21,839 bases of DNA, taken from IMG/VR virus record IMGVR_UViG_3300047323_000350, positions 1-21,839 of that record. One strand, 5' to 3'. Of this stretch, positions 6,730 to 21,839 are shown piece by piece. This DNA comes from a virus. The first letter of the stretch is position 1. Each line of letters opens with the position of its first letter. The notes under the pieces are model-generated. The model did not search any database, was not told the DNA's origin, and worked only from the letters and a program-made list of their open reading frames with translations. Both the position numbers and the translations under genes were made by a program.

Positions 6730-7337
6730 TTGGCGGCCTGCTGCCTGCTGTCATTGCATCCGTCAGCGACGACGGCCGTGAGGAAAGGCAATACCGGATC
6801 AGTATTCCGGGCCTCACCGACGGCGCGGCCGTAATGCCGCTCGCGCAACTGTGCAACCCCATCGGCGACAACAGCGAGGAAACCGAAATCCGCATCAAGG
6901 CGGGGGATCGCGTCTGGATTGCGTTCGAGGCGGGCGACACGCGCTTTCCGGTCATCGTCGGTTTCCGGCCAAAGAATCAGGAAAACGGCATCGACTGGCG
7001 GCGTTTCTTCCAAGCAAACTTTCAGTTCAACGCTGACAACACGTTTGAGGTTATCGCCAATACGCTCGTGCATGTGAAGGGGGAAACCGTGCACGTAGAG
7101 GCGACGACAACCAACGTAGACAGCACCGATACCAATGTGAGCGGCAACCTCACGGTCGGCGGCCTGCTCACGTTTAACGGCGGCATGACGGGCAAGGCGG
7201 GTGCCAGCGGCGGCAAGGCAATCACCGTGCAGGGCGGCGCATCGTTCAGTGACGACGTGACGGCCAACGGCGTGAGCGTGAGCGGCCACAAGCACCCTGA
7301 AACGGGCTCAACGACAGGCGCACCGATCAAGTCATAA
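6726..7337 (+). CDS. Baseplate spike protein, gpV-like, with HxH tip
   Basis: A 203-residue protein. The ATG at 6726 is chosen over the ATG at 6708 because GGGGGG (6715-6720) is ideally spaced before it; it overlaps the hub stop by four bases. Residues ~1-85 form an OB-like domain (YRISIPGLTDG, AGDRVWIAFEAGD, FPVIVGF). Residues ~100-180 are short beta-helix repeats with T/V/N turns. The C-terminus has GHKHPETGSTTGAP, with H188 and H190 as the HxH pair that binds iron at the spike apex in P2 gpV and phi92 gp138. The trimer pierces the host outer membrane. This is one of the firmest calls in the window. Confidence 0.88.
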   Translation: MIGGLLPAVIASVSDDGREERQYRISIPGLTDGAAVMPLAQLCNPIGDNSEETEIRIKAGDRVWIAFEAGDTRFPVIVGFRPKNQENGIDWRRFFQANFQFNADNTFEVIANTLVHVKGETVHVEATTTNVDSTDTNVSGNLTVGGLLTFNGGMTGKAGASGGKAITVQGGASFSDDVTANGVSVSGHKHPETGSTTGAPIKS

Positions 7338-14930: not shown

Positions 14931-15334
14931 AACGACTGTTCTACGCGCTGCTGCTGCTCTTTTGGTCGGCTGCGGCCGTAGCTGCTCAGGTGACGTTCGC
15001 GCACGACCTGCGCGACATTCCGGCCGCTGCAATCGGTATCTCTGTTCTGCTCGCGATCATCGGCGGCTCGGCATACACCGCGCAGAAGATCGCAGACCCG
15101 GCGACCGTCGTCAAAAGCGTGGCGCTTGAAATCGTGAAAGACCTGTTGACGTCGATTGTCGTCGGGCTGTGCATTTTCTTTCTCGGCTCGTATTTCAACT
15201 GGCAATCCGTCGTGCAGGCCGGACTCATCACGCTCGGCGGCTATAGCGGCTCGCGCGTGCTCGAACCGGCCGTAAGCGGCTTCGTGGCATGGGTGAGCCG
15301 TATGAGCGGTACGACGCCTGGCGAGGGCACGTAA
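14909..15334 (+). CDS. Holin, LydA-like (holin superfamily III)
   Basis: A 141-residue inner-membrane protein preceded by AAGGA. It has membrane segments at residues ~8-25, ~37-55 and ~75-95 and a C-terminal helix with QAGLITLGGYSGSRVLE, a pattern found in LydA-family holins. It would form pores that release the endolysin at the end of the lytic cycle. It overlaps the upstream membrane-protein gene and its stop overlaps the endolysin ATG (TAATG), so the lysis genes are translated together. Confidence 0.8.
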   Translation: MPQSLQLKRLFYALLLLFWSAAAVAAQVTFAHDLRDIPAAAIGISVLLAIIGGSAYTAQKIADPATVVKSVALEIVKDLLTSIVVGLCIFFLGSYFNWQSVVQAGLITLGGYSGSRVLEPAVSGFVAWVSRMSGTTPGEGT

Positions 15335-15969
15335 TGCAGATCACGCTCGCAGAACTGAAGCGACTCGCACCGGGCACGTCGGCAGACCTGCCTGTATGGG
15401 TCGATGCGCTTAACGCGGCGATGGCTGAGTTCGCCATCACGACGGAACAGCGCATCGAAATGTTCATCGCGCAGTGCATGCACGAGTCGGCAAGTCTCTC
15501 GCGCCTGTCGGAGAACCTCAATTACTCCGCGCAGGGACTGGCGAACACATGGGACCGCTACAGCGCGACGGGCAAGCGCGGCGGTGCGCCCAACACGCTC
15601 GCGCTGACGCTTGCGCGCAGACCTGCGGCCATCGCGAACAACGTCTATGCGAACCGGCTCGGCAACGGCAGCGAGTCGAGCGGCGAGGGCTTTCTGTATC
15701 GCGGCCGGTGCCCGTTGCAGATCACTGGAAAAGCGAACTACGTCGCCGCGAAAACCACGCTGAAGATCGACGTTGTGGCGCACCCGGAACTGTTCGAGCA
15801 GCCGGTGCACGGTGCGCGCGGCGCAGCGTGGTTCTGGAAGGCGCACGGCCTCAACGAGATTGCCGATACGGGCAATTTCAAGGCAACAACGGCCGTCATC
15901 AACGGCGGCGATATCGGCGGTGCGGCTCGCATCGGCCTGTGGCAACTGGCTAAGGAAGTCATCGCATGA
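15334..15969 (+). CDS. Endolysin, GH19 chitinase-like lysozyme
   Basis: A 211-residue enzyme of the GH19 fold that cuts the glycan strand of peptidoglycan. The ATG at 15334 overlaps the holin stop; an ATG at 15289 is in frame but lacks support. Candidate catalytic glutamates are E51 in MHESAS and E60 in ENLNYS, the same nine-residue spacing as in the domain at 1585-4008. The later substrate-binding motif reads GRCPLQITGKANY, where most relatives have a GRG start, so one glycine is cysteine here. No signal peptide is present, as expected for holin-released endolysins. Lysis context makes this a firm call. Confidence 0.9.
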   Translation: MQITLAELKRLAPGTSADLPVWVDALNAAMAEFAITTEQRIEMFIAQCMHESASLSRLSENLNYSAQGLANTWDRYSATGKRGGAPNTLALTLARRPAAIANNVYANRLGNGSESSGEGFLYRGRCPLQITGKANYVAAKTTLKIDVVAHPELFEQPVHGARGAAWFWKAHGLNEIADTGNFKATTAVINGGDIGGAARIGLWQLAKEVIA

Positions 15970-17617: not shown

Positions 17618-18865
17618 TTATGTCTCCCGGCTCGCGAGGACTTCAGCGGCTCGCTTGCCGCGAAAACCTGTCCAGTTGGCCTTTTCCTTGATGTTGGCGA
17701 ACTCGTGTTTCTCGCCGATGCGCGTTTGAGCGTGCGTCTGCTCGATGAACGCGACGGTAATCGCCTCTTTCTCATCGTCTGTCAGCTTGCCCCATGCTCC
17801 GCGCGTCGTGGCGACCTGCCTGTCTGCCTTGACCTCATCGGGCGACGGCAGCGCTGGCGCTTTGACGGCTCTCCTTGTCTTGCGCTCAGGCAGATCCAGC
17901 GGCGAATCGCTCTCGAACACGCTCATGAAGTAGCCCGCAGGCGAGCCGGTGATTTTCCCCGCCGCCTCGCGCTCCAGCGTGACCTTGATCGCGAGCGCGG
18001 CGCGCGGCAGGTTCTTCGAAAGAATGCTCTTTATGCTGGACTCACCGAAGCCGATAGCGGTCAACTGCTCGCGCAGCATGGCCTCTTTCGGGTCCGCCTC
18101 GAACGGCAGTTCCGCCTGGGCCTTTTCCGTCACGCCGAATTGCAGTTCGGTTACCGTGCGGCCGACCTTTTTAAACCGCAGTTCGACGTCGATATCCGAA
18201 ACGGCGTTGACTTCCTTGATGGCCTTCTGCAAGACGAAGTTGGAAAAATGCCGGTACTGCTCGTACATTTTTCCCGTCGCGCCTAGCAGTTCGCGCCACG
18301 TATCGACGGGCGCATACCGGGTTTGTCCGATGGTCCGATAGCGCAGGCAGTTCTCATACAGCGCGAGCGCATAACCGCTCTTGAAGCGTCGTTGCATCTT
18401 AATGTCGATGGCGGCGAACACTTCCGGGCGCGCAAGGCGGTCGGCGAGCCATTCGATATACGCGTATGTCACCCGCCCATTGCTCACGCCGATAGACGAC
18501 ACGAGCGGCGTTTTTTTCCAATCCTCTTTGCCGTCCGCGAACATGTTCAGCGTGACGATGTTGTGCATGATGTTTTCGGCGGCCTGCGCGAGTTTCTTGT
18601 GATCGTTGCTCGCCTCCCATCCGATTGCCTCGCACAGAAACTTCACCGACATGGTGTGCTCACGCTTCGTGAGCAGGTCATCGTATGCGTGCAATAAAAG
18701 CACATTCACGATTTTGCGCTCAACGAGAGACAGACTGCCGCTGACGTGGATTGTCGCGACGTGCTTGCGCAACTCGCGTTCGTCCAGCTTGGCGAGTTCT
18801 GCCGACCGGGCCTCTGCCGGTAACACCTCAATGCCGACCTTGTCGGCCGCTTTCACTCTCCCCAT
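17618..18865 (-). CDS. Plasmid replication initiator, Rep_3 (RepB) family
   Basis: A 415-residue protein. The start is taken as the ATG whose complement lies at 18863-18865, since GGGGAGAGGT precedes it; a TTG at 18883 would add six residues. Residues ~35-230 form the paired winged-helix domains of Rep_3 initiators: SLSLVERKIVNVLLLHAYDD, then YALALYENCLRYRTIGQTR and the DTWRELLGATGKMYEQYRHF segment. The ~170-residue C-terminal extension is basic and Pro-rich. The protein binds the iterons directly upstream and opens the origin. Iterons lie upstream of the gene, and an inverted half-site spans its promoter, so autoregulation by Rep dimers is likely. This is the decisive sign of a plasmid state. 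Confidence 0.9.
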   Translation of the reverse strand: MGRVKAADKVGIEVLPAEARSAELAKLDERELRKHVATIHVSGSLSLVERKIVNVLLLHAYDDLLTKREHTMSVKFLCEAIGWEASNDHKKLAQAAENIMHNIVTLNMFADGKEDWKKTPLVSSIGVSNGRVTYAYIEWLADRLARPEVFAAIDIKMQRRFKSGYALALYENCLRYRTIGQTRYAPVDTWRELLGATGKMYEQYRHFSNFVLQKAIKEVNAVSDIDVELRFKKVGRTVTELQFGVTEKAQAELPFEADPKEAMLREQLTAIGFGESSIKSILSKNLPRAALAIKVTLEREAAGKITGSPAGYFMSVFESDSPLDLPERKTRRAVKAPALPSPDEVKADRQVATTRGAWGKLTDDEKEAITVAFIEQTHAQTRIGEKHEFANIKEKANWTGFRGKRAAEVLASRET

Positions 18866-18891
18866 GACCTCTCCCCGATGCAATGGGGCGA

Positions 18892-18920: not shown

Positions 18921-18939
18921 GGTGATATGTATGCCTTAT
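18906..18939. promoter_or_regulatory. Candidate Rep operator: inverted iteron half-sites at the rep promoter
   Basis: The - strand TATGCTGT (18906-18913) and + strand TATGCCTTAT (18930-18939) are iteron tails facing each other, flanking the -35 region. Iteron plasmids commonly use such inverted half-sites for Rep-dimer repression of rep. Here the role is inferred from position and sequence. Confidence 0.45.
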
Positions 18940-18943
18940 GCTA

Positions 18944-19085
18944 TCCCGCAAACTATGCTCTATGCGATTCATCCCGCAAACTATGCTCTATTGGGGGGCC
19001 TCATCCCGCAAACTATGCTCTATGGCCTCGCGCCGCGCCGGGCATCCCGAAAACTATGCTCTTTGTCCCGCAGACTATGCTCAAT
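18944..19085 (+). repeat. Origin iterons, cluster 1 (five direct repeats)
   Basis: Five 20-bp direct repeats with consensus TCCCGCAAACTATGCTCTAT start at 18944, 18972, 19004, 19045 and 19066. The fourth has TCCCGA for TCCCGC, and the fifth has CAGAC for CAAAC and ends TCAAT. They are Rep-binding sites of the plasmid origin. Start-to-start spacing is 28, 32, 41 and 21 bases. Confidence 0.9.
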
Positions 19086-19170
19086 ATTGGCTTACCTATA
19101 CCCAATAGACGCATAAATATCGTTATAAATCATCATGTTACGGCGGTTTACGAGCCTGTTTTCATTGCCA
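19086..19170. other. AT-rich spacer, possible origin unwinding element
   Basis: An 85-base stretch, much richer in A+T than the surrounding genes (for example CATAAATATCGTTATAAAT), lies between the two iteron clusters. AT-rich DNA flanking iterons is where strands usually open. I see no clear DnaA box with the TTATNCACA consensus. Confidence 0.55.
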
Positions 19171-19264
19171 TCCCGCAGACTATGCCTTATCCCGCAGACT
19201 ATGCTCTATCCCTCGCGAACCGTCCCGCAGACTATGCTATGACGTCCCGCAAACTATGCTGAAT
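19171..19264 (+). repeat. Origin iterons, cluster 2 (four direct repeats)
   Basis: Four repeats of the same 20-bp element start at 19171, 19190, 19223 and 19245. Three have CAGAC, and the last has CAAAC and ends TGAAT. The first is altered to TATGCCTTAT, the same as the half-site near the rep promoter, and shares its last T with the second. A decayed copy (TGCCCGCAAAC) follows near 19266. Confidence 0.88.
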
Positions 19265-19427: not shown

Positions 19428-19447
19428 CGGCGATAGACATATCTATC

Positions 19448-19852
19448 TTAGTCGCGGTCGGGCGTGTCGTATTGGGCGATCAGGCGATCAACGATTTCCT
19501 CAATGCCCTGCATGGCGATTTTCTGCATCGAGGTGTTCGGCATGTGCTCCGCGAGCCATTTCAGCTTTGCGTGCAGTTCCTCTGCCGGGCGCAGATTGAA
19601 CGGCTTCGTGACCTTGGGATGAGCGTCCTCCCACGGCCTGCGAGGCTTCGCGCGCAGATCGAGCCTGCCCTGCCCTGCCGTCGCCTCAGGTGTGGCGCGA
19701 TGCATGCGTTGTGCAGCCGCAACCGGCGCGACCTCAAATGGCAGCACGCGCTCAGGCAGCGGCGCGTGATCGGCGGGCATCGGCTCGCCGTCGGGAACAG
19801 GGACCAAGTCCTCAGGCCGGAACTGAAAGCCGGGTTTGAGCGCGTTTCTCAT
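19448..19852 (-). CDS. Second small DNA-binding partition-type protein (paralogue of the upstream one)
   Basis: A 134-residue protein overlapping the upstream gene by four bases (ATGA). The N-terminal ~70 residues are Pro/Ala-rich and probably flexible. The C-terminal ~60 residues begin RPWEDAHPKVTKPFN and have EELHAKLKWLAEHMPN and S-Q-K spacing equal to those of the gene upstream (PW-AHP-V-F-EE-H-KL-WL-E-M-S-QK). This is a small ribbon-helix-helix-like fold: a beta strand (VTKPFNL) and two helices. Such proteins pair with short ParA ATPases to bind centromere DNA and repress the operon. Its different N-terminus suggests that the copies have separate jobs. Confidence 0.68.
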   Translation of the reverse strand: MRNALKPGFQFRPEDLVPVPDGEPMPADHAPLPERVLPFEVAPVAAAQRMHRATPEATAGQGRLDLRAKPRRPWEDAHPKVTKPFNLRPAEELHAKLKWLAEHMPNTSMQKIAMQGIEEIVDRLIAQYDTPDRD

Positions 19853-20313
19853 GATTTCAGAATCTCCTTGATGCGCTTGTCGAGCAGCGCATCGACGGCC
19901 TCATGCACGAGTTTCTGGATTGACTGGCGGCCGGTCATATTCTCAGTGAGCCAGGTCAGTTTCATGTGCTGTTCTTCACTGAACTGGGTCGAAAAGTTGA
20001 CCTTGACGCGCGGGTGAGCGTTCGCCCACGGCAAACCGGCGTCCCTGCCCTTTTTGCCCTTGCTGGCGGGTTTCTGCGCGGCGGCCGGTGCCTCGGCATC
20101 CGCGACAGCCTCGGCGGGCTCGCTGGCGGCCTCTACAGCGGGCTGCGCGTCGCTCGCCGGTGCCTCGCCCTCAACGTCGGGCGCGGGCGGCTCTGCGGGC
20201 GCGTCGTGCGCTTCCGGGTTCCCCTTGTCCAGAAACGCGGCCATGCGTGCCTGTTCGGCTGCAAGGCGCGCGGCGGCCTGCCGCTCCTGCTTTGTCTGTT
20301 GTTGTTCAGCCAC
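19849..20313 (-). CDS. Small DNA-binding partition-type protein (ParG/ParB-like)
   Basis: A 154-residue protein starting with GTG, overlapping the ParA stop by eight bases. The first ~30 residues are Gln/Lys/Ala-rich helix, followed by ~60 residues of Ala/Pro/Glu-rich linker. Residues ~95-150 are the likely ribbon-helix-helix domain, with the strand RVKVNFSTQF and helices EEQHMKLTWLTENM and IQKLVHEAVDALLD. ParA-Ib systems usually encode one such centromere-binding partner; here there are two in tandem. A flexible N-terminal tail is also typical of ParG-type proteins, where it stimulates the ATPase. Confidence 0.7.
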   Translation of the reverse strand: MAEQQQTKQERQAAARLAAEQARMAAFLDKGNPEAHDAPAEPPAPDVEGEAPASDAQPAVEAASEPAEAVADAEAPAAAQKPASKGKKGRDAGLPWANAHPRVKVNFSTQFSEEQHMKLTWLTENMTGRQSIQKLVHEAVDALLDKRIKEILKS

Positions 20314-21013
20314 GGTAAATCTCCACTAGCAGTTGTTCCATTTCCGCGAGGGCGGCCTTGACGCCCTTGTCTCGTGGCCGTTGCTCAATGATGGCCTCGC
20401 CCGTTTTCGCCCATCCGGCATACTGCGCGCGGTAGTTGACGACGGTTTCGAGCGTACGGAACTCAATGAATTTCGCCGAATCCTTGTAAAACACCTCGAC
20501 GTCGCTCGATTTCGCGTTCGTGCTGGCCTGCGTGGGAAAAAGCATCGCGTCGAGCGTAGGATTCATCGTGCGCGCCTCGCCGACCAGTAGGTTGATCGCA
20601 TCGAGCCGGGCAATATCAGCCGGATTTGGCCTGCAAGGCGTCACCACGCGCGAGGCAACGAGCAGTGCGGCGCGGATTTCGGTCGCGCCGTGGCCCTCGC
20701 CGCCGACGTCGACAATGATTTCGTCATAGTCGGCCGCCTTTGCCTTCAGTTGCATGTGCAGGTCGCGCCCGCGCAAGGTGATGACCTCGATAAACGGCAG
20801 GTCGGTGCGCACCTTGGGATCATCCGGGCCTCGCGCAAGCGTCTCGTCGGCGCGGTCGTTGCGCGCCATGCTGAACGTGCGAAGCGACTGGCCGGTGTCG
20901 GCGTCCACCATCAATACGCGCTTGCCCGCGTAGGACAGCATGACGCCCAGGTTGACGGCGGTTGTTGTCTTCGCAACACCGCCCTTTGTGTGTGCAACGA
21001 CCGTAATCGACAT
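20306..21013 (-). CDS. parA: ParA-family partition ATPase (short, type Ib-like)
   Basis: A 235-residue protein. The start is the ATG at 21011-21013; AAAGGG lies upstream, and translation upstream of it does not look like the family. It has the deviant Walker A motif KGGVAKTTT (residues ~10-18), a Walker A'-type MVDADTGQS region, and the Walker B-like IIVDVGGEG. No N-terminal helix-turn-helix is present, so it belongs with the short ParA proteins. It segregates the plasmid copies by ATP-driven movement over the nucleoid, working with the two DNA-binding proteins encoded downstream. It is the first gene of the operon. Confidence 0.9.
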   Translation of the reverse strand: MSITVVAHTKGGVAKTTTAVNLGVMLSYAGKRVLMVDADTGQSLRTFSMARNDRADETLARGPDDPKVRTDLPFIEVITLRGRDLHMQLKAKAADYDEIIVDVGGEGHGATEIRAALLVASRVVTPCRPNPADIARLDAINLLVGEARTMNPTLDAMLFPTQASTNAKSSDVEVFYKDSAKFIEFRTLETVVNYRAQYAGWAKTGEAIIEQRPRDKGVKAALAEMEQLLVEIYRG

Positions 21014-21045
21014 GAGGTGACCCTTTTCGGCTTGATATGTCGCGC

Positions 21046-21074
21046 AGTGTATTGATTTATCTATATCACTACAA
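21046..21074 (-). promoter_or_regulatory. Candidate par operon promoter (- strand)
   Basis: On the - strand, TTGTAG and TACACT are separated by 17 bases. The predicted start is about 25-30 bases before the parA ATG. Hexamer sequence and spacing match the rep promoter candidate. A palindrome copy lies about 75 bases upstream. Confidence 0.5.
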
Positions 21075-21136
21075 GCCGGATAGCCCCGTTCCATATGGTT
21101 TGTGGGGCGAAGGGAACACGCCACATACGGTCGATG

Positions 21137-21175
21137 CAAGTGTGACTGATACCAACTGGTATCACGCCCGCGCGA
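21137..21175. repeat. Palindrome-containing repeat, copy 1
   Basis: This 39-base direct repeat (33 of 39 identical to copy 2 at 21509-21547) has at its centre GATACCA-AC-TGGTATC, a perfect 7-bp-arm palindrome (21148-21163). It lies upstream of the par promoter, in a place suited to an operator or centromere. Confidence 0.7.
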
Positions 21176-21508
21176 TAAGGGGTTTCGGACGTTTTTCTCA
21201 TTTCCTCTGTCACACTCAGAGCGACACGACACAAAATCACGGCCTAACGGAAACGGATTTCCTCTTTTCCATTCAATTTGGGTGCTGCCTGCTCTTTTCT
21301 TGTTGCTTTCGGCCCGGTTAGATCAAGAAAAGACACACAAAGAGCGAATAAAACCTATCTTATGTGTTTCGACATGACTTATTTGGGTGAGAAGTGACCC
21401 TATGTGGTTATGACGGACAAAACTACACAGGAAACGAGTCGAACAAACCATAACAAGAAACAAAAGGCACGATTTCAACACCCCAAACAAGGACAAATAG
21501 AAAATGGT
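21176..21508. other. Non-coding AT-richer region upstream of the par operon
   Basis: No convincing gene is seen on either strand. The base make-up is AT-richer than the genes, and the repeated word ATTTCCTCT occurs at 21200 and 21257. A short frame from 21410 to 21592 lacks the codon bias of its neighbours and runs through a palindrome, so I do not call it. The region may be part of the partition site. Confidence 0.5.
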
Positions 21509-21547
21509 CCAGTGTGTCTAATACCAACTGGTATCAGTGCCGCGCGA
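21509..21547. repeat. Palindrome-containing repeat, copy 2
   Basis: The second copy of the 39-base direct repeat, 372 bases from copy 1. Its core ATACCA-AC-TGGTAT lies at 21521-21534, preceded by GTGTGTCTA and followed by CAGTGCCGCGCGA. The match beyond the palindrome shows that the flanks are conserved too. Confidence 0.7.
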
Positions 21548-21575
21548 ATGTATGAAAGGGTGGTGTCGAGAAACG

Positions 21576-21621
21576 GCATAACGTGTGTTTAATACCAGTT
21601 GGTATGGGTTACACGTTATGC
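21576..21621. repeat. Concentric 46-bp palindrome, copy 3
   Basis: ATACCA-GT-TGGTAT (21592-21605) is centred inside an outer perfect 11-bp inverted repeat, GCATAACGTGT (21576-21586) and ACACGTTATGC (21611-21621), with the same midpoint. The 5 bases between arms and core do not match. The GTGTG that precedes the core is shared with copies 1 and 2. Confidence 0.75.
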
Positions 21622-21651
21622 GTACAGGTGAGGCAATACGGGAAGGAGGCG

Positions 21652-21839
21652 TTAAGCCTTGATTTCAGGCGGGACGCGCTCACAGGAGAGACGGTGAGAG
21701 ACGGCCAGCAGGCCATTGGACGGGCGGGGTAGGGCGGCCGTTTTGCACGGGTCGGCAGGCGGCGGGTCGAGTCGGGCCTGCAATGCAAGCAGCGCAAGCG
21801 CACCGGTGATAGCGATCAGGTACGTCGGAATATGGCGGA
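21652..21839 (-). CDS. Small membrane-anchored protein, 5' end outside the window
   Basis: The frame is open from the right edge to a TAA at 21652-21654, giving 61 residues. It starts RHIPTYLIAITGALALLALQ, which reads as basic residues and one membrane helix, followed by a Pro-rich segment (DPPPADP) and two cysteines. The start and any signal lie beyond the edge. Small membrane or lipoprotein genes next to plasmid maintenance loci are often exclusion or mating-pore components, but no family is recognised here. The call is tentative; codon choice and the membrane segment favour this frame over the alternatives. Confidence 0.4.
   Translation of the reverse strand, partial: RHIPTYLIAITGALALLALQARLDPPPADPCKTAALPRPSNGLLAVSHRLSCERVPPEIKA

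Follow-up and report, generated by a model that had tools for sequence, protein, structure and literature searches.

Conserved ATACCA half-sites upstream of parA: a probable centromere and operator of a type Ib partition system in Paraburkholderia/Burkholderia phage-plasmids

What might be the role of the long non-coding stretch upstream of a phage-borne parA gene, and which protein would read it? The window analyzed here is an entire virus record of 21,839 bp, itself a fragment, and the remaining molecule was read in relatives; an earlier suggestion to search the rest of the molecule for the motif described below was followed in the relatives' records, the window already being the whole record. 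The features of the locus are collected in Table 1. ParA is matched by Pfam AAA_31 (1.4e-14), by PHROG 164 ParA-like (1.5e-36) and by NCBIfam ParA_partition (1.6e-31, which is under that model's cut-off). Type Ib systems have a deviant Walker ParA of about 200-240 aa without an N-terminal HTH and a small protein gene directly after parA; the protein encoded here fits that description, with KGGVAKTT near its N-terminus, and two small genes follow, overlapping the end of parA and each other. The order parA, RHH1, RHH2 is identical in five relatives. A ribbon-helix-helix (RHH) fold is tentatively predicted for RHH1 and RHH2 from a strand-helix-helix pattern (predicted helices at 113-125 and 129-153 in RHH1, and at 89-103 and 108-128 in RHH2) and from weak family matches below cut-off (Antitox_RHH for RHH1, E 0.021; HicB-type RHH for RHH2, E 0.013). 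The AlphaFold models are of low confidence (pLDDT 57-60), and searches of the PDB by fold and by sequence profile returned no RHH protein, the only structural match (Z 2.7) being meaningless. RHH1 appears to be a paralogue of RHH2, because the RHH2 profile matches the RHH1 of relative G001 at 4.4e-12. The same maintenance module includes RepB, which is 72.5% identical to the RepB of pBVIE05, an 88-kb circular plasmid of Burkholderia vietnamiensis G4, and the repeat array upstream of the initiator probably represents replication iterons. Immediately 3' of the RHH2 stop codon there is also a GATAG-N6-CTATC palindrome, found in five elements that include those with other par repeats (window, about 19432-19447; L125, 13254; L126, 13986; L116, 11419; L184, 8525).

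Table 1. Features of the par and replication region (positions in the window)
Feature	Position	Strand	Description
Rep_3 family replication initiator (RepB)	17618-18883	-	Pfam Rep3_N 2.8e-20; same maintenance module
Direct-repeat array	18932-19260		about nine copies of CCCGCAAACTATGCT, located upstream of the initiator; probably iterons
RHH2	19448-19852	-	134 aa; best candidate reader of the ATACCA half-site; predicted strand KPFNLRP
RHH1	19849-20313	-	154 aa; N-terminal part disordered, ribbon-helix-helix predicted for the C-terminal part
parA	20306-21013	-	Walker ATPase of 235 aa, in the type Ib size range, lacking an N-terminal DNA-binding domain
Non-coding par region with all three sites	21014-21651		638 bp, between parA and the next minus-strand gene
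Proximal site ATACCAACTGGTAT	21149-21162		exact match; -149 to -136 relative to the parA start codon
Extended repeat of the proximal site	21137-21175
Distal site 2	21521-21534		exact match; extended repeat 21509-21547
Distal site 1	21592-21605		exact match; at the center of the 46-bp palindrome
46-bp concentric palindrome around distal site 1	21576-21621		17/23 pairs; outer arms of 11 bp, GCATAACGTGT

The stretch upstream of parA had been described as non-coding, and it is so from the parA start codon at 21013 to the stop codon (21652-21654) of a small minus-strand neighbor that is cut by the contig end. As first noticed, it contains three exact copies of the palindrome ATACCA-N2-TGGTAT, ATACCANNTGGTAT, and no further copy was found in the window even when 2 mismatches were allowed; the shuffled expectation is 0.11, and 3 copies were reached in 0/100 shuffles. 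The 39-base repeat reported around two of the palindromes is likewise borne out, the copies starting at 21137 and 21509 having 33 of their 39 bases in common. A consensus promoter was looked for at the site and not found.

Relatives were reached via the window's RepB and its 542-aa phage protein (10142-11770). Elsewhere in the window, the same chitinase-like (GH19) domain is present in an 845-aa phage protein (1471-4008) and in a putative endolysin (15289-15969). The relatives are phage-plasmids carrying a plasmid maintenance module, and they include G001 from Paraburkholderia sp. C35 (a contig of 93,160 bp, the same as NZ_QBUY01000024.1), G002 and G003 (virus contigs from metagenomes, 93,641 and 98,469 bp long, respectively), and pBVIE05. 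In G001 and G002 the gene order is CI-like repressor, ERF-like gene, exonuclease, RdgC (with an FtsK gamma domain), ParB-like, small genes, non-coding par region, ParA, RHH1, RHH2 and RepB, and the layout of the par region is identical to that of the window. Three of the phage-plasmids, but not G003, encode an RdgC that ends in an FtsK gamma domain (E about 1e-22 to 1e-25; L125, 8319-9497; L126, 9388-10509; L116, 6167-7276). This fusion is an unusual recombination protein, one domain of which may read DNA sequence.

The 14-bp palindrome is present in 4 copies in G001, and in 3 plus one altered copy in G002. Three copies lie upstream of parA in the window's order and with nearly its spacing (71/372 bp in the window, 74/379 in G001, 80/about 340 in G002), and one more precedes rdgC in G001, G002 and contig L136. 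Relative to the parA start codon, the proximal site starts at -149 both in the window and in G001, the counterparts of distal site 2 are at -528 in G001 and -490 in G002, and those of distal site 1 at -602 and -570, respectively. When the region is aligned with the relatives, the sites are conserved as islands and the spacers have diverged. A lack of conservation in related molecules had been named in the first-pass annotation as evidence that would speak against a function, and the opposite was found: order, spacing and distance to parA are all kept. In the whole 9.7-Mb genome of Paraburkholderia sp. C35 the palindrome occurs 4 times, always on the 93-kb element, the fourth copy preceding the RdgC/ParB-like operon, and a host regulator is therefore unlikely to be the reader. 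A distant nucleotide search with the par region among phages and plasmids found only a short ParA stretch in Thermus plasmids. The 16-mer TAATACCAGTTGGTAT was found in 106 stretches of viral contigs, nearly all single and apparently due to chance, of which 2 have symmetric arms of at least 9 bp; a longer pattern with a CACAC arm matches G001 and G002 only.

The first-pass annotation took the 14-bp palindrome as the unit of recognition. Comparison of the sequences corrects this: the true repeated unit is the half-site ATACCA, because other relatives repeat it directly, 10 bp apart. Upstream of parA in G003, ATACCAGCTAATACCAG and ATACCAGCTAATACCGGTAAGTACCAG consist of half-sites and near-copies (ATACCG and GTACCA) in direct orientation every 10 bp, and the fourth site of G002 is a direct ATACCA pair with 10-bp spacing; the proximal half-sites are 10-bp direct repeats in both elements (-151/-141 in G002 and -159 in G003). 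The window and G001 have inverted half-sites, G003 direct ones and G002 both. ATACCA is significantly enriched upstream of parA in all four (observed 4-7, expected 0.2-0.3, 0/2000 shuffles) and is absent upstream of parA in pBVIE05. Type Ib RHH proteins read direct and inverted repeats equivalently, from a centromere upstream of the par operon (PMC5016525; PMC9499535), and the ATACCA half-sites form an upstream set of direct and inverted repeats of that kind.

The concentric 46-bp palindrome around distal site 1 is real but imperfect. About its center at 21598/21599, which it shares with the 14-bp core, 17 of 23 positions pair and the outer arm of 11 bp is perfect. By symmetry alone it is merely the best among many 46-mers, the runners-up reaching 15/23, and we take it as real because it is conserved in G001, where the same GCATAACGT...ACGTTATGC arms enclose the same core with 19/23 pairs. 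The G002 counterpart is a perfect palindrome with 15-bp arms and without the GCATAACGT arms. A second motif, ATAACGT, flanks the 46-bp palindrome and recurs in G001 and G002; it is absent from G003 and L184, and no binder could be named for it. The length of the concentric palindrome is what recommends the earlier idea of a telomere-resolution site of an N15-like linear prophage, but this is now scarcely credible. The core is common to two further sites and to one near rdgC, the outer arms are lost in G002, and pBVIE05 is on record as circular. The protelomerase gene that such a linear phage-plasmid would carry, and that the first-pass annotation proposed to look for, was sought in five relatives of the fragment (G001, G002, G003, G005 and pBVIE05), none of which has a match to the protelomerase family PF16684, although the positive control matched.

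Which protein reads the sites? In each of the ATACCA elements (the window, G001, G002 and G003) the predicted DNA-reading strand of RHH2 is PFN[LM]R, and in pBVIE05 and contig L184, both without ATACCA, it is TSIRLEM. These last two elements have other repeats in common, namely ACCTRWAC half-sites that form matching clusters upstream of parA, one distal and one proximal, with ACCTAAACTGTTCTGTACAGGT as a further repeat in the pBVIE05 clusters. The window and G001 have the same sites and share 91% of RHH2 but just 60% of ParA; pBVIE05 and L184 share 92% of RHH2 and 68% of ParA. Across these six elements, which amount to roughly two or three lineages and few independent changes, the sites appear to vary with RHH2 and not with ParA, the ParB-like HTH protein or the CI-like repressor. 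RHH1 could be the binder instead of RHH2, because it likewise changes with the sites. No ATACCA lies close to the orphan RHH-like genes of chromosomes G235, G095 and G245, and these genes therefore do not extend the co-variation test.

An operator for a regulator encoded outside the window, the other function originally suggested, is the weaker proposal. The ParB-like HTH protein encoded behind RdgC could use the sites as parS or as operators, repressing its own operon and parA in the manner of KorB. Typical ParB sites are palindromes of 14-16 bp, a protein with a ParB-type HTH (HTH_ParB, E 1.5e-4 to 3e-3) has its gene about 1 kb away in G001 and G002, and one site precedes the ParB-like operon in G001, G002 and L136. 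However, the site does not track the HTH as it should in an HTH-type ParB/parS system, whether type Ia or KorB-like: the HTH is largely kept in pBVIE05 (48/65) and G003 (45/65) with a nearly identical recognition helix, yet pBVIE05 is without an ATACCA site and G003 has direct repeats only, which are ill-suited to a two-fold HTH dimer. The closest relatives of this protein are in many other phages and plasmids, and here it lies within a recombination operon, all of which makes it an unlikely reader. A role for the RdgC-FtsK-gamma fusion, or for another phage recombination protein, is more doubtful still. The FtsK gamma domain is a winged helix that reads sequence, and in three relatives rdgC is immediately preceded by a site, but pBVIE05 has the fusion without the sites, and the sites cluster at parA. 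It is also very improbable that the sites are operators of a CI-like repressor that maintains the prophage: several palindromic operators would suit such a protein, and the relatives encode a CI-like repressor that has a peptidase S24 domain, but no ATACCA palindrome is near the repressor gene in any whole record, G001 and G002 included. Another palindrome, ATAGA-N4-TCTAT, is found just beyond that gene in G001 and G002 and at comparable positions in pBVIE05, and is the probable repressor operator.

A partition centromere for the two small proteins encoded at 19448-20313, which the first-pass annotation had listed among its candidates, is the best-supported reading, the sites lying upstream of a 235-aa ParA, with order and spacing kept and a sequence that switches with the predicted RHH strand. 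It is likely that the palindromes are the centromere and operator through which a partition system of type Ib, composed of ParA and ribbon-helix-helix proteins, works in a Paraburkholderia/Burkholderia phage-plasmid. RHH2 dimers, possibly with the paralogue RHH1, would dock on ATACCA half-sites, two half-sites per palindrome, and the DNA around the three sites would form a partition complex on which ParA would act to separate circular prophage copies. Binding at the same sites would repress parA, and the copy before the RdgC/ParB-like operon in the relatives is probably an operator. Three palindromes standing apart make a sparser array than is typical of type Ib centromeres, which counts against the type Ib assignment, and the putative system has other uncommon traits: two paralogous small genes for predicted DNA-binding proteins, long isolated palindromes, and a related site before a recombination operon. 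Arc/Mnt-type RHH repressors have an xFNLR strand and half-sites about one helical turn apart, a resemblance to the RHH2 prediction that serves as a lead; neither RHH1 nor RHH2 gave a significant database match to them.

The predicted system is reminiscent of delta/omega/parS of pSM19035, which has a small ParA without HTH, in which a small RHH centromere-binding protein reads direct and inverted repeats, and in which sites upstream of several genes make omega both repressor and centromere protein (PMC9499535). Both have a small ParA, a small (here predicted) RHH protein, repeats in either orientation and sites upstream of several genes. Unlike pSM19035, with 7-10 contiguous 7-bp heptads per site and one omega gene, the window has isolated 14-bp palindromes or, in relatives, 10-bp-spaced pairs, and two paralogous small proteins. 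In parFGH of TP228 the centromere is upstream of the operon and comprises direct and inverted repeats, and ParG has a flexible N-terminus and a C-terminal RHH (PMC5016525). The upstream repeats and the small protein with a disordered N-terminus and predicted C-terminal RHH are similar here, whereas repeat unit and density differ, and kinship by sequence with TP228 parFGH was not established. The par locus of pBVIE05 has the same gene order (RdgC, ParB-like, ParA, RHH1, RHH2, RepB) and two repeat clusters upstream of parA, but its RHH2 strand is TSIRLEM, not PFNLR, and its repeats are ACCT-type, not ATACCA. A literature search on pBVIE05 and Paraburkholderia phage-plasmids found nothing of use.

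With this proposal a function is assigned to the main non-coding region shared by a set of Burkholderia/Paraburkholderia phage-plasmids of roughly 90 kb, for which we found no published partition site. The naturally swapped pairs, ATACCA with PFNLR and ACCT-type repeats with TSIRLEM, could serve as a test of DNA choice by predicted RHH partition proteins, a choice that would bear on which phage-plasmids can share a host. More speculatively, the partition proteins might also control the recombination operon (RdgC-FtsK gamma plus ParB-like) via the outlying copy of the centromere site, with the paralogous RHH proteins dividing the composite palindrome, one on the ATACCA core and the other on the flanking GTGTGA or GCATAACGT arms. 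We offer this tentatively, as a possibility with the balance against it; if true, shared control via the outlying site would couple plasmid segregation with phage DNA processing.

The ATAGA-N4-TCTAT palindrome is located at 5130 in L125, 6280 in L126, 5662 in L136, 3066 and 3114 in L116, and 1117 in L184. The same motif precedes each of two orphan RHH1-like genes that are without parA and belong to other genomes of this family (L190, 6488-6904; L191, about 6810-7000), which may be solitary regulators or remnants.
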